From positions 1 to 24,712 of IMG/VR virus record IMGVR_UViG_3300031772_000269: a stretch of 24,712 nt of DNA, one strand, 5' to 3'. Below the pieces are notes generated by a model that did no database searches, was not told the origin of the DNA, and saw only the letters and a list, made by a program, of their open reading frames with translations. The position numbers and the translations under genes are program-made. Source of the stretch: a virus. Positions 6,954 to 24,712 of the stretch are shown here, piece by piece; the stretch's first letter is position 1; the number at the start of each line of letters is the position of its first letter.

Positions 6954-7313
6954 TTAAGCTGCTGTTGTTGTTGTTGTTGTTGGTGCAGCAGTCGTTGTAG
7001 TAGTTGTTGGTGCAGCTGTAGTAGTAGTAGTAGTAGTAGTAGTTCCAGAACCAATTACTATAGTTCCACTACCATTTATGGTAATAGGATATAAAACAGA
7101 ATCATCTGTTAATAATTGTGCCCCATACCAACTTGTACCATCTCCATAAATAGGTTGTGTTAATCTACTATCGGCAAATAATACATTTGCAGATGTTAAT
7201 GTACTTGTTGTTGCATAGACAATTTGAGTGCCTTGATCAACTCCTATAAGATTTGCCTGAAAGGCATCAGGGTATGTATTTTTAGACAATACATATGCTA
7301 TTGAATTTGCCAT
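6954..7313 (-). CDS. Small beta-rich protein with Thr-Ala-Pro tail (decoration or fibre protein candidate)
   Basis: A 119-residue protein. Residues 1-90 are beta-rich and non-repetitive (IAYVLSKNTYPDAFQANLIG, then DDSVLYPITINGSGTIVIGSG). From residue 91 to the end it consists only of Thr runs separated by Ala-Ala or Ala-Ala-Pro, in three units. It lies between portal and scaffold genes together with a 128-residue neighbour that ends in the same kind of tail. Thr-rich TTTTTTAAP repeats occur in exposed fibre or decoration proteins of aquatic Bacteroidota phages, as I recall. A flexible stalk or surface tether on the head is the likely meaning, possibly glycosylated. No leader peptide or membrane segment is present. 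The stop falls directly after the repeat, so the length may vary between strains through slippage. Confidence 0.62.
   Translation of the reverse strand: MANSIAYVLSKNTYPDAFQANLIGVDQGTQIVYATTSTLTSANVLFADSRLTQPIYGDGTSWYGAQLLTDDSVLYPITINGSGTIVIGSGTTTTTTTTTAAPTTTTTTAAPTTTTTTAA
6957..7043 (-). repeat. Threonine-codon microsatellite (Thr-Ala-Pro tail)
   Basis: Eighty-seven bases made almost entirely of ACT/ACA/ACC-type Thr codons interrupted by GCA/GCT and CCA. They encode three blocks of six to nine Thr separated by Ala-Ala-Pro. On the plus strand it reads as GTT, GTA and GTG triplets. It is prone to replication slippage in steps of three bases, which would keep the frame. Confidence 0.85.
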
Positions 7314-7332
7314 TTTTTTTTATTTTTTTTTA

Positions 7333-7719
7333 TTAAGGTGCTGCTGTTGTTGTTGTTGTTGTTGTTGTAGAACCTTGTAATAGTAAATATTTACCAATAA
7401 TGCCAAATTCCACAATTCCAGCAGTTGCAATAGATGAAACATCAGTTTTAGTGGATAAATTTACCCCTAATACTGTTACCCCATTAATAGGCACCTCTGG
7501 TGCAGGCAATAATTGCCCTGTAATTGAACCATCATCGTTTGTAGTACTAAAACTAACCGTTCCAGATGTACCTACAAATTGAACTACTGCTGAATCCCAT
7601 CCAGATAAATCTTGATAGAAATTGTTATTAGCATTAAAAGATTCAGTTGCATCTACAACTGTACTAATTTTTGAGCTAAATTTCTGTAGTCTTATTAAAA
7701 GTTTACTTACCGTTGCCAT
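7333..7719 (-). CDS. Small beta-rich protein with Thr-Ala-Ala-Pro tail
   Basis: A 128-residue protein starting MATVSKLLIRLQKFSSKIST. The body (1-117) is a predicted beta-sandwich with alternating hydrophobic residues, for example WDSAVVQFVGTSGTVSFSTT at about 41-60 and GVTVLGVNLSTKTDVSSIA at about 80-98. The last 11 residues are eight Thr then Ala-Ala-Pro. The body does not obviously align with the neighbouring 119-residue protein, yet both end in the same low-complexity tail. They therefore look like two exposed parts of one structure, or they share an assembly signal. It begins 23 bases after the portal stop and is followed by the 119-residue gene after 19 bases. A head decoration or fibre role is inferred from position between portal and scaffold; no enzyme motif is seen. 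Confidence 0.6.
   Translation of the reverse strand: MATVSKLLIRLQKFSSKISTVVDATESFNANNNFYQDLSGWDSAVVQFVGTSGTVSFSTTNDDGSITGQLLPAPEVPINGVTVLGVNLSTKTDVSSIATAGIVEFGIIGKYLLLQGSTTTTTTTTAAP
7336..7368 (-). repeat. Threonine-codon microsatellite, second copy
   Basis: Thirty-three bases encode eight Thr plus Ala-Ala-Pro at the very end of the 128-residue protein, the same kind of repeat as at 6957-7043. On the plus strand it is a run of TTG/GTT triplets. Confidence 0.8.
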
Positions 7720-21484: not shown

Positions 21485-22648
21485 CTATGAAAGGTAATTA
21501 GTATCTTTTACCATTCCTGATGGTAAAGCATTTTCGTAAGCAACTCTGTTATTTAAATTAATAATAGATTTGTCATCAAAGTTTTTTCTCATTCTTTTTA
21601 TATGTTCATCTTGATTTACTTTTTTATCTTGCAATGCTTTTTGCCATAATTCTGGTGTTATATTATCACCATAATTTTGGGTGTAACCATTCTTTTTAAG
21701 TACAAATCTTACAGCATCTAAATCAGCTTTATTTTCATCTGCACCATAATCATGTGAATCATATGCGCCATTCATTACATCTAATAAACTATTTGCAAAT
21801 GACTTTCTAGGTATTCCATTAGCAAATCCAGTAGTTGGGCTATAATCATGTATATTTTTAAAAAAATCCTCTTTATATGCCGGACTATTTACTAGATCAA
21901 AAGCAAAATTTGGATTTTTTTTCATTGATTTAACAATGTTTAAAATAGTTGTAGGATTTTTAGTTCCAGAAGCAATTGCTGTAGATGGTTGTTCTAAAAC
22001 AGAAGTAGATGGATATAAACTAACATTAGTCCCTGCTGGCCAATTAGTAATTGGATATTTTTCTTCATTTGGTTTATTATAATACCAATCATTAATTGAT
22101 CTTCCTTTATGCCATTTATCAAATAAAAATCCTTTTTTAGGAAGTTCATTAGATTGTTTGTTTTGTAAATCAATAAAATATTTTTCAGCAGGTGACATAT
22201 ACATTGAACCGCCTGTACCTATAACTTTTGCTAATTCTTTTTTTGAATCATCAATGCTTCTATAACCACTATGACTAGGATAATAAGTTGACAAACCCAA
22301 TGTACTTGAATCAACTCCAGAAGTTAAATGCCCTAATTCATGAGCAAAAACACTGTCTGAATTTGATTTTGTGTTATCAAAAGCCAAATATGGTCTATTT
22401 GTTTTAGGATCTACGCTTGCACTTCCTCCCCCAGTCCAATCCATTCCAGTACCTTGATATGGTCTAAGTTCTGTATTTCTTAATACATTTACTCTATCCT
22501 GTATTAATTTCATAACCGTATCTTCTGGTTCTCCCATTTCTAAAAGCCTTTTTTTATAAATAGGGCTTAATATATAATTAATCTTCTCTTCTATTTGAGG
22601 ATGAAGTTTTTTTACAGGGCCTGAACCTTTCATTGAGCTTAATGCCAT
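21485..22648 (-). CDS. Zinc metallopeptidase-like protein (HELGH)
   Basis: A 387-residue protein with SVFAHELGHLTSG (about 99-111). HELGH (103-107) is the HExxH zinc motif, with a Gly before the second His as in many active metallopeptidases. A candidate third ligand is E305 in GADENKADLDA, as in gluzincin-like enzymes where E-x-x-x-D follows. The N-terminal 90 residues are charged and helical (LLEMGEPEDTVMKLIQDRVN), and the part after the active site is Ser/Asn/Tyr-rich without a membrane segment or signal peptide. It could be a virion-associated peptidase that cleaves structural or host proteins, or an inactive structural relative. It is the last gene of the right-hand leftward block, 6 bases after the DUF5856-like gene, and is followed by a terminator. 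Zinc binding is likely; substrate is unknown. Confidence 0.68.
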   Translation of the reverse strand: MALSSMKGSGPVKKLHPQIEEKINYILSPIYKKRLLEMGEPEDTVMKLIQDRVNVLRNTELRPYQGTGMDWTGGGSASVDPKTNRPYLAFDNTKSNSDSVFAHELGHLTSGVDSSTLGLSTYYPSHSGYRSIDDSKKELAKVIGTGGSMYMSPAEKYFIDLQNKQSNELPKKGFLFDKWHKGRSINDWYYNKPNEEKYPITNWPAGTNVSLYPSTSVLEQPSTAIASGTKNPTTILNIVKSMKKNPNFAFDLVNSPAYKEDFFKNIHDYSPTTGFANGIPRKSFANSLLDVMNGAYDSHDYGADENKADLDAVRFVLKKNGYTQNYGDNITPELWQKALQDKKVNQDEHIKRMRKNFDDKSIINLNNRVAYENALPSGMVKDTNYLS

Positions 22649-22654
22649 GACATA

Positions 22655-23026
22655 CTATTTTAAACTAAGTAAGTAAAGTGTTTCTGCAACTAATTGAGAT
22701 ATTTCATCTACTTGATTTTGAATCCAGCTTTCTTGGTAAATATCTTGTCTTTCTTTTTGAATTGCATTATAGCAAGACTTAAAATATTTAACAACTTGCT
22801 CATGATTTTTATAATCTACTGGACTATCTAATTGATAATGTTTAGGTCTTTCGTAAATTCCACTTACGCTTTCTACTAATCCATCAGTTAAACCAACGAT
22901 TGCATCATAAAATTTACCTAATGCTTTATGTTCTGCATAAGACTCGGTTTGATGGTGCCATACTACAGATTGATCAAAAGCATCTTTAAGATAAGATACA
23001 AAATATGAAAATTTTTCTTCAGCCAT
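22655..23026 (-). CDS. Ferritin-like (Dps-type, DUF5856-like) protein
   Basis: A 123-residue, all-helical protein. The segment VVWHHQTESYAEHKALGKFY (about 21-40) followed by DAIVGLTDGLVESVSG (about 41-56) matches the first two helices of Dps/ferritin-like proteins: 'W.H..t.sy..H.al...y..i....D.l.E...G', with His24/25, His33, Asp48 and Glu52 as possible metal ligands. The rest (VKYFKSCYNAIQKERQDIYQ, and SQLVAETLYLLSLK) forms two more helices, as in a four-helix bundle. Phages and T4-like viruses carry related DUF5856 proteins of unknown role. It lies between the 94-aa basic gene (20 bases) and the metallopeptidase (6 bases). Iron binding, DNA protection or virion cargo are all possible. Confidence 0.65.
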   Translation of the reverse strand: MAEEKFSYFVSYLKDAFDQSVVWHHQTESYAEHKALGKFYDAIVGLTDGLVESVSGIYERPKHYQLDSPVDYKNHEQVVKYFKSCYNAIQKERQDIYQESWIQNQVDEISQLVAETLYLLSLK

Positions 23027-23046: not shown

Positions 23047-23331
23047 TTACGATTTTTTATGTGCATTGGCAAATTTTCTAGCGGCTTCCACACTACCAAA
23101 TCCCCACGCTTTGAGGGCTAACGCTTTGCGTGTAGGCTCTCCGTTTGGTTTTTTCATAGCCCCAAGCATACCAGAAAATCTAGCTGCAAATGAAACTCTA
23201 CGAGGATTAACGCCAGATTTAACAGGTGATTTTAGATGACCACCAGTTTCTGCATTATATGATGCTCTACCTTTGGCATTTAAGCCACCTTCAGGATTTT
23301 TTCCTTCTTTACGTTGCCAAGCTCCAGGCAT
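23047..23331 (-). CDS. Basic DUF6321-like phage protein (94 aa)
   Basis: A 94-residue protein: MPGAWQRKEGKNPEGGLNAK at the start, then GVNPRRVSFAARFSGMLGAM and KKPNGEPTRKALALKAWGFG. It is strongly basic (about one quarter Lys/Arg), Gly-rich, and has the 'MPGAWqRkeGKNpeGGLNakGRaSyn' opening I remember for a DUF6321-type family widespread in phages. No enzyme motif is visible. It starts 3 bases after the 51-aa gene's stop. The base composition is visibly more GC-rich than the genes on either side, consistent with constrained Gly/Arg/Ala-rich sequence. Function unknown; DNA or virion association is suggested by charge. Confidence 0.7.
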   Translation of the reverse strand: MPGAWQRKEGKNPEGGLNAKGRASYNAETGGHLKSPVKSGVNPRRVSFAARFSGMLGAMKKPNGEPTRKALALKAWGFGSVEAARKFANAHKKS

Positions 23332-23334
23332 AAC

Positions 23335-23490
23335 TTATTTTTTTTCTTGTGCTTTAATTTTTTTTTCTTGTTTAAGCATTTCTGGTGTAGGCTTTTTACC
23401 TGAACCAGCAGCCGCACGAATGTTGTCCCAAAGACCACGAGGAGAAGATGAGCCATCAGCCCTTTTCATCATTTTTAATTTACTTTTCAT
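23335..23490 (-). CDS. Small basic protein with the MKxKLKMMKRA leader (51 aa)
   Basis: ATG at 23488-23490 to TAA at 23335-23337 encodes 51 residues: MKSKLKMMKRADGSSSPRGL, then WDNIRAAAGSGKKPTPEMLK and a Lys/Gln/Glu end. The first 11 residues are identical, except for Ser/Gly at position 3, to those of the gene directly before it, and the DNA is 25/26 identical. The WDNIR.aaGSGKKPT.eML segment is, as I recall, common in small proteins of Bacteroidota phages. It overlaps the previous gene by ATGA and precedes the 94-aa gene by 3 bases. Mostly disordered, basic; possibly packaged with DNA. Function unknown. Confidence 0.68.
   Translation of the reverse strand: MKSKLKMMKRADGSSSPRGLWDNIRAAAGSGKKPTPEMLKQEKKIKAQEKK
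23465..23490 (-). repeat. 26-bp repeat encoding a shared leader, copy 1
   Basis: The first 26 bases of the 51-aa gene match the first 26 bases of the 150-aa gene (23914-23939) at 25 positions; the one difference changes the third codon (AGT/GGT). The encoded residues are MK(S/G)KLKMMK, and the similarity continues to R-A. Confidence 0.85.
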
Positions 23491-23939
23491 TTTATAAGTT
23501 TAAGGTTTTTTAATTTTTCTATGATTTTATTAGCTTCTTCTTCTGCAAATCCTATTGCTTCCTCTTCTTTATCCTTTATATCCCAATTGTTTAGCAAAAT
23601 ACCCATGTGCATTGTTTCGTGCATTATTGCTGTCTTTTGTTCTTCAGCTTTATATCTTTTAAAAGTACCCATGTTTAAAAAAATAAACGGTTTATAAGGA
23701 CTTTTGGCTGTAAGTTTTTTATCTGCTGGATTATAATTCGTAAGCCCATAAATATACACCCCATTTCCCTTGGTTTTATCTACCTCCTCTGCTTGAGCAT
23801 CCTTTAGATTTAACCCATGCATTTGTTTTACATCATAAAATTTAAAAATATCTGTAGCATCTTTACCAACAACCAATATGTATTTACCCATATCAAAATT
23901 GGTAACTGCTCGCTTCATCATTTTTAATTTACCTTTCAT
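23487..23939 (-). CDS. Second metallopeptidase-like protein (HETMH) with shared leader
   Basis: A 150-residue protein. It starts with MKGKLKMMKRA, nearly the same as the next gene's start, then a beta-rich part (GKYILVVGKDATDIFKFYDV, about 18-37) and PYKPFIFLNMGTFKRYKAEE (about 81-100). The segment KTAIMHETMHMGILLNNWDI (102-121) contains HETMH (107-111), the HExxH zinc motif. A helix with E125-E127 and EEEAIGFAEEEANKII follows, in which a Glu could be the third ligand, as in gluzincins. It is much shorter than the other metallopeptidase in this block and not obviously its paralogue. It overlaps the following gene by ATGA. A minimal secreted or virion peptidase, or an inactive zinc-binding protein, are possible. 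No signal peptide is seen. Confidence 0.68.
   Translation of the reverse strand: MKGKLKMMKRAVTNFDMGKYILVVGKDATDIFKFYDVKQMHGLNLKDAQAEEVDKTKGNGVYIYGLTNYNPADKKLTAKSPYKPFIFLNMGTFKRYKAEEQKTAIMHETMHMGILLNNWDIKDKEEEAIGFAEEEANKIIEKLKNLKLIK
23914..23939 (-). repeat. 26-bp repeat encoding a shared leader, copy 2
   Basis: First 26 bases of the 150-aa gene; 25/26 identical to 23465-23490 in the same direction. The copies are 449 bases apart. Confidence 0.85.
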
Positions 23940-23955
23940 ACCGCTAAGATACGAA

Positions 23956-24291
23956 TTATTTCCAATTCTCTGCCTTCCAAATAGTCAAGTCTATCCCTTT
24001 TAAGCCCTCTGGAGGCGTTTTCATATTTTCACGAGGTATTGCTACTATTCTTGGATAATCTGCCATTATTGAGCTATCTATGTCGTAAGGAGGCATATTT
24101 TTAAATGGTGCTCCTCTTTTCGTTTTAATTTTATCTAATTCTGCTATTATTTTATCAGATTGGCTGTGTGCCAAATAAAAATCAATAAGATAATCTAAAA
24201 CAGATTGCGTAGATGTCAAATTCTGCTCTTTTTGAATTATTTCCAACTTATATAAGTCAAATCTGACTCCTATTGGTTTACTTTTTGCCAT
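23956..24291 (-). CDS. Ribbon-helix-helix-like protein (111 aa)
   Basis: Start taken at ATG 24289-24291 (MAKSKPIGVRFDLYKLEIIQ); an ATG four codons earlier is possible but lies deeper in the upstream gene. The N-terminal 45 residues fit a ribbon-helix-helix: strand KPIGVRFD, helix LYKLEIIQKEQNL, then TSTQSVLDYLIDFYLAH. This is the pattern of small dimeric DNA-binding repressors (Arc/MetJ/CopG). The C-terminal 60 residues (KTKRGAPFKNMPPYDIDSSI, then a Pro/Glu-rich part ending DLTIWKAENWK) are unrecognised. It overlaps the methyltransferase end by 14 bases, so it is translated after it. It may regulate the methyltransferase or the block. Confidence 0.65.
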   Translation of the reverse strand: MAKSKPIGVRFDLYKLEIIQKEQNLTSTQSVLDYLIDFYLAHSQSDKIIAELDKIKTKRGAPFKNMPPYDIDSSIMADYPRIVAIPRENMKTPPEGLKGIDLTIWKAENWK

Positions 24292-24712
24292 TTTCAAATT
24301 CATTTATTATTTTAAAAATTTCATATGCTACTTGTGGAACTATTGCGTTCCCATATGCTTTTATTGATTCTGTTCTCCATTTAGAAAAGGTAATTCTGTC
24401 CAATTTTTCGGAAATCCCATCATTTCCGCAACAAATCGGGTACTCAATTGAATATTTTTTCCATTCTCTTTTTTCGGAATCATGCTTGAAATTTGAGTTG
24501 CTAAATTTGGCATTGTTGTTCCATTTGGGTATTTCTCCATTCTTTCCTTGAATTTTTTCAAATCCTGAACTTGTTCTCTTGTTGTTGGAGTGAGCAATAA
24601 ACCAGATTCTATCCCTTCTGTGCGGTGCATTGACACTTGCAGCAGGAATAATAAACGGTTGGACTTCATAACCTTGCCCTTCCAAGTCAGCACACACCTC
24701 ATTGAATACCAC
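24278..24712 (-). CDS. dcm: DNA cytosine-C5 methyltransferase, C-terminal part (runs off right edge)
   Basis: The last 144 residues of a C5 cytosine methyltransferase. QPFIIPAASVNAPHRRDRIW (about 18-37) is motif VIII (Q-R-R-x-R in the family; here APHRRDRIWFIA). ESIKAYGNAIVPQVAYEIFK (about 113-132) is motif X (GNAVxP). The insertion between, rich in Asn, Lys and Ser, is the variable target-recognition region. The N-terminal motifs (SAM-binding FxGxG, PCQ catalytic loop) lie beyond the window, so activity cannot be judged. It methylates cytosine in a specific DNA sequence, probably to protect phage DNA from host restriction. The final residues overlap the ribbon-helix-helix gene. No cognate restriction gene is seen in the window. 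Confidence 0.88.
   Translation of the reverse strand: MVFNEVCADLEGQGYEVQPFIIPAASVNAPHRRDRIWFIAHSNNKRTSSGFEKIQGKNGEIPKWNNNAKFSNSNFKHDSEKREWKKYSIEYPICCGNDGISEKLDRITFSKWRTESIKAYGNAIVPQVAYEIFKIINEFENGKK

Follow-up and report, generated by a model that had tools for sequence, protein, structure and literature searches.

The capsid-targeting sequence (CTS) of phage T4 ends at a cleavage site of the (L/I)xE type. It is carried by the T4 internal proteins IPI, IPII, IPIII and Alt, and consists of ~10 N-terminal residues common to phage proteins that are unrelated apart from it and are dispensable, variable and often basic (PMC9026906). The encapsulation peptides of bacterial microcompartments are described as short helical tags joined to their cargo by a disordered linker (PMC12339742); these are cellular organelles and an unrelated system, and the likeness is one of analogy only. 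The cargo of crassvirus crAss001 is different again, consisting of the large proteins gp45-gp50, for which no shared short N-terminal tag is mentioned in the passages considered (PMC10172136). The locus considered here resembles the T4 case in that a short N-terminal sequence is found on several unrelated phage proteins (20 families); it differs in its sequence and in the phage group that carries it, and both packaging and cleavage are here putative. No Glu is conserved; LxxM is followed by K, Q or R and then mostly by K or R. A gp21-type prohead protease was recognised in none of the PHROG-tested structural proteins, several of which gave no match at all. By analogy, the T4 CTS would be the nearest known mechanism; membership is not claimed, since the leader has no cleavage site with a Glu and its packaging is putative.

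The stretch of DNA analysed (the window) is the entire 24,712-nt IMG/VR record IMGVR_UViG_3300031772_000269, which probably represents part of a genome of 60-70 kb. Its terminase and portal proteins belong by PHROG search to head-and-packaging families, and the described phages nearest to the terminase are Flavobacterium (elemo), Cellulophaga, Tenacibaculum and Maribacter phages together with an unassigned Caudoviricetes record, at 27-29% identity (the best among the matches listed). These distant matches to flavobacterial phages argue that the host is probably a member of the Bacteroidota, and the virus is probably an uncultured phage of flavobacteria. Two neighbouring proteins at 6954-7719 both carry Thr-rich TTTTTTAAPTTTTT repeats at the C-terminal end.

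The gene pair of interest lies on the minus strand. A 150-aa metallopeptidase-like gene (23487-23939), with an HETMH motif and a core that begins with FDMGKYIL at residue 15, is followed by the gene of a 51-aa basic protein with the GLWDNIRAAAGSGKKPTPEMLKQEKKIKA module (23335-23490), and the two reading frames overlap by 4 nt (ATGA, 23487-23490). As the preliminary description had claimed, both proteins open with MK(G/S)KLKMMKRA, residue 3 (G or S) being the sole difference in the first 11, and the 26-nt starts, encoding MKGKLKMMK in the peptidase gene (23914-23939, minus) and MKSKLKMMK in the native start of the 51-aa gene (23465-23490, minus), differ at one base (25/26 identical). Its judgement that such a start is unlikely to be shared by chance has also been upheld: the leader DNA has exactly two matches in the window at <=3 mismatches, where 0 are expected (100 shuffles), and a chance origin is rejected on the shuffles together with the motif permutations given below (0/1,000). 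Given the same peptide and the codon usage of the window, in which AAA and TTA dominate, the three Lys codons and one Leu codon would be identical with a probability of ~0.10; since this is a match of about 1 in 10, and Met has a single codon, it is the peptide and not the DNA identity that constitutes the signal. Both reading frames are, to judge by their conservation, real genes, because relatives were confirmed in viral contigs for each (416 stretches for the 51-aa protein and 136 for the peptidase) and HET(M/V)H is kept, being present in 28/28 aligned peptidase homologs in agreement with the HExxH pattern of a zinc metallopeptidase.

The leader has a different standing in the two families. 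Peptidase homologs beyond the closest relatives mostly start at or near MKKFDMGKYIL, without the leader, and in the AlphaFold model of the window protein (mean pLDDT 79) the core is folded and the leader is disordered (residues 1-9 with pLDDT <50), partly helical at low confidence. A Pfam search with the 150-aa protein gave Peptidase_M56 at E 0.099, short of the cut-off, and a PDB fold search with the model reached E 0.27 at best, with no significant zincin; a search of bacterial and archaeal genomes yielded no cellular homolog, and a tblastn search of described phages gave only a match at E ~1. In the 51-aa family, MKxKL(K/Q)MMKR is kept by nearly all of the best 80 of the 416 relatives, and among 30 distinct leaders the residues are kept through synonymous changes of the Leu, Lys and Arg codons; judged from this conservation, it is to the 51-aa family that the leader natively belongs. 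The 51-aa protein itself matched no Pfam or PHROG family and nothing by tblastn in described phages. In one relative (L248:2550-6386) a 51-aa module (MIKRADGSYSQRGLWD) is fused inside a 1278-aa protein.

The preliminary description had also considered that no other gene might carry the leader; the window in fact holds a third tagged gene, that of a 387-aa zincin-like protein (HELGH; 21485-22648, minus) opening with MALSSMKG. M1, M6 and K7 are invariant among its 9 homologs, which have 24-78% identity to it; the structural model is poor (mean pLDDT 56, first 11 residues <50), and a fold search with it gave nothing significant. The tag, which stands ahead of a variable linker on accessory proteins that are otherwise unrelated, would be of the general form M-x(0-8)-[LI]-x-x-M-[K/Q/R]. 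Starts of this form, M-x(0-8)-[LI]xxM[KRQ], occur in 20/149 families located <=2.6 kb from a 51-aa gene versus 0/256 families that these phages carry only outside that range, structural genes included (Fisher 9e-10). In a de novo search of 8,563 gapped three-residue features at residues 2-14, the [LI]xxM[KRQ] class was the best, and was equalled in 0/1,000 label permutations; the same search at residues 21-33 gave no signal, and the positional enrichment of the tag is at residues 2-9. Among held-out families, from later-fetched loci and with no similarity to the earlier set, 3/22 versus 0/74 are tagged (p 0.011). That so short a motif was tested after it had been noticed is a concern, which the permutations of the de novo search and the held-out families lessen. 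A stricter held-out test, confined to genes on the same strand and downstream of a slot-element match (see below), found 0/14 tagged, mostly on unrelated contigs, and a comparison of all pairs of N-termini gave a weak excess (29/14,130 versus 10/10,738 at score >=35).

Among the families with the tag are two of zincin-like peptidases, one of a histidine phosphatase (Pfam E 1e-24; its only match among defence-system models is a weak one to JetB) and several that have no known relative. The Leu, Lys and Arg codons of the tag vary, and many of the genes have other upstream regions than the slot element. In the tagged KTPTG family, which has no tblastn match in described phages, the tag M is almost invariant though the linker varies. 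Two tagged proteins (L091:1179-2117 and L053:646-1359) share LPTVTVTSK after the linker, a sequence that we take to resemble a TonB box. Adjacent structural-type genes at L193:18561-19276 and L104:6551-8058 share N-terminal segments of another sort (MAIPSxQIGW, MDILNFISWI), perhaps tail-fibre attachment domains and unlike the tag in kind.

The best explanation, to which a probability of about one half is given, is that the leader is an N-terminal address tag on exchangeable accessory proteins, most plausibly for virion loading. The tagged proteins would sit in one exchangeable gene cluster of phages probably infecting Bacteroidota, where the tag most likely recruits the two zincin-like peptidases, the histidine phosphatase and small basic proteins to one phage partner that binds it; the partner would be virion-related, and recruitment would most plausibly serve loading of the virion and then delivery into the host. 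The distribution of the tag suggests such an address label for virion-carried proteins. The idea of a targeting or packaging tag, put forward from the sequence of this window, thus stands as to the tag, which is found on 20 unrelated families and on none elsewhere; its packaging half stays conjectural. Counting against the tag reading are the DUF6321 protein (94 aa; 23047-23331, minus; Pfam PF19846 E 2e-24), the DUF5856 protein (123 aa; 22655-23026, minus; Pfam PF19174 E 1.5e-18; phrog_858) and some 200-205-aa proteins, all of which occupy the cluster or its slot without a tag.

That slot explains how the two members of the window pair came to match so closely. The element TTCGTATCTTAG (23944-23955, minus) is separated by 4 nt from the ATG of the gene that opens the cluster, and contains TATCTTAG, which is 1 mismatch from TAnnTTTG, the Bacteroidota -7 box consensus. 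In relatives the slot is directly preceded by a 115-aa gene of the MAKSKPIGVRFD family (23956-24303, minus, in the window). Many relatives have the conserved element TTCGTANNTTAG 3-4 nt before the ATG of the 51-aa gene; in the window it stands ahead of the peptidase instead. Across relatives the slot element precedes 51-aa, 150-aa, 77-aa, 129-aa, 130-aa, 200-aa or 215-aa genes, so that at least seven different genes, most of them tagged, are found behind it. The tags of these occupants include MLKSMKK (77 aa), MKSKLEIMKQ (129 aa), MAKLQIMKK (130 aa) and MAKLQAMKN (215 aa); the occupants of 200-205 aa are untagged, and the 200-aa proteins have a hydrophobic start.

In relatives without the peptidase, the equivalent 24 nt upstream and the leader belong to the 51-aa gene. 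The peptidase start of the window matches the empty-site 51-aa start of one such relative (L068) at 57/60 nt (24 upstream and 36 coding), versus 38/60 nt, or 22 differences, for the window's own 51-aa start, whose leader is a different allele (AAAAGGGCTGAT in place of AAGCGAGCAGAT). The peptidase thus sits in the slot and uses the local 51-aa start. The alternative that the peptidase gene recently received a copy of the leader downstream of it was rejected, the coding part of the peptidase start having 2/36 differences from empty-site leaders versus 6/36 from its own neighbour. It would appear that the incoming peptidase gene took over the local promoter-like element, the ATG and the tag codons of a 51-aa gene, and that the 51-aa gene which now follows retained a leader of its own, overlapping by the ATGA; the close match within the pair would arise because the peptidase occupies a slot that begins at the 51-aa start. 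For the window pair, the empty-site relatives therefore support the earlier suggestion of a recombination trace that copied a start region. Where relatives keep both genes adjacent, the leader, whose loss had been named as telling against the idea, is on both, with slight changes in L088 and in a rebuilt form in L089. Genes of T4-type phages are reportedly exchanged as mobile regulatory cassettes at a conserved regulatory start element; the joint exchanged here differs in that it includes the first codons of the protein.

Takeover of starts may also be all that there is to explain: in a recombination hot spot, cargo inserted where genes start would copy the start codons, and the leader peptide would be functionless. 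The window pair fits this exactly, and the same architecture is seen at an untagged gene in L168 (5241-6060), where a 185-aa Cys-rich protein opens with MSGAWQRKEGKN, like DUF6321 in its first 12 residues, and is followed by the DUF6321 gene with other codons; to judge from this arrangement it is a second case of start takeover, at an untagged neighbour gene. GIY-YIG and HNH endonuclease genes, which L037, L039 and L168 carry within the cluster or next to it, are a plausible source of the mobility of the slot. However, this account leaves unexplained why 20 unrelated families have tags that differ in codons and in residues, and the M and K that remain invariant in the 387-aa zincin family down to 24% identity, and it is on the whole unlikely. 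The tag is, from its behaviour across families, more than a recombination scar.

For the address tag, the suspected link to the virion comes from the neighbourhood of the cargo genes in related phages. In one locus (L096) the peptidase directly follows a homolog of the 233-aa protein of the window, a PHROG "virion structural protein", and precedes by one gene a homolog of the tail protein of the window. In four others (L225, L226, L228, L247) KTPTG-family cargo is just upstream of homologs of the 221-aa and 128-aa genes of the window, and in the first three of these also upstream of terminase and portal homologs. Such neighbourhoods argue for virion loading from gene position; counting against it, the tagged cluster of the window and its close relatives is apart from the structural operon. 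The tag might instead direct proteins to a site other than the virion, such as the host membrane, a replication compartment or a host partner. The L/I-xx-M-K/R spacing would fit a short amphipathic helix, as would the part of the leader that is helical, at low confidence, in the peptidase model, but related phages have homologs of the cargo domains in their packaging and structural operons, and such a destination is rather doubtful. An expression signal, in which A-rich N-terminal codons help Bacteroidota phages to initiate translation on mRNA that is SD-less or nearly leaderless, is very improbable, since despite the slot element 3-4 nt before the ATG and the A-rich codons, it is the Leu and Met residues that are conserved while their codons vary, the motif is absent from the 256 other families of the same phages, structural genes included, and the upstream regions differ among many tagged genes.

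If the tag is a packaging or delivery signal, it labels accessory proteins that phages may bring into the host, and proteins of unknown function become a defined and testable class. A T4-like combination of short N-terminal address and interchangeable cargo would then have arisen separately in Bacteroidota phages, and ten residues would offer a handle on how such particles are loaded.

Other lineages, reached by alignment of the KTPTG family and inspected at few loci (the statistics above cover lineage A only), show other shared starts. MKKIGIMNTPVD, MMGIMQAPGDP and MLGIMNAPLDP, of a type assigned to lineage B, are found on the same kinds of cargo (L229, L233, L236, L241), and three adjacent genes in L247 start with MSVVSKLIGILNRREMGGSGEDPKPKP, MADVNKLISIINKRETGG and MADVNKLISILNRREMGGSGEDPKPKP. 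It is tentatively suggested from these starts that related lineages use different short N-terminal tags on shared exchangeable cargo, which would be re-addressed on moving; the tags would be LxxMK in lineage A, GIMNxPxD or GIMQAPGD in B and KLISILNRREMGG in C. The cluster of L089 is of the B type and still has what is left of a truncated A-type 51-aa gene; its peptidase reads MVGIMNTPLDQLKMMKRAIANFDMGKY, in which the B tag MKKIGIMNTPVD precedes a window-type A tag; the double leader MVGIMNTPLDQLKMMKRAIANF and the truncated remnant (MKNKLKMMKRADGSYSRRKARTLQ) lie at L089:3348-3821.

The tagged cluster is often close to the limit of the available sequence. A 66-kb relative (G001) has the same 150-aa/51-aa pair at its end, and large relatives mostly (e.g. 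G001, G002, G003, G005, G007, G009) break within ~0.4-4 kb of the cluster, the pattern that either a hypervariable region or the end of a genome would be expected to give. Inverted duplications, representing either a genome-end structure or an assembly artefact, are seen around the cluster or at contig ends (L011/L015, contig 3300032323_002596; L246; the ends of G005).
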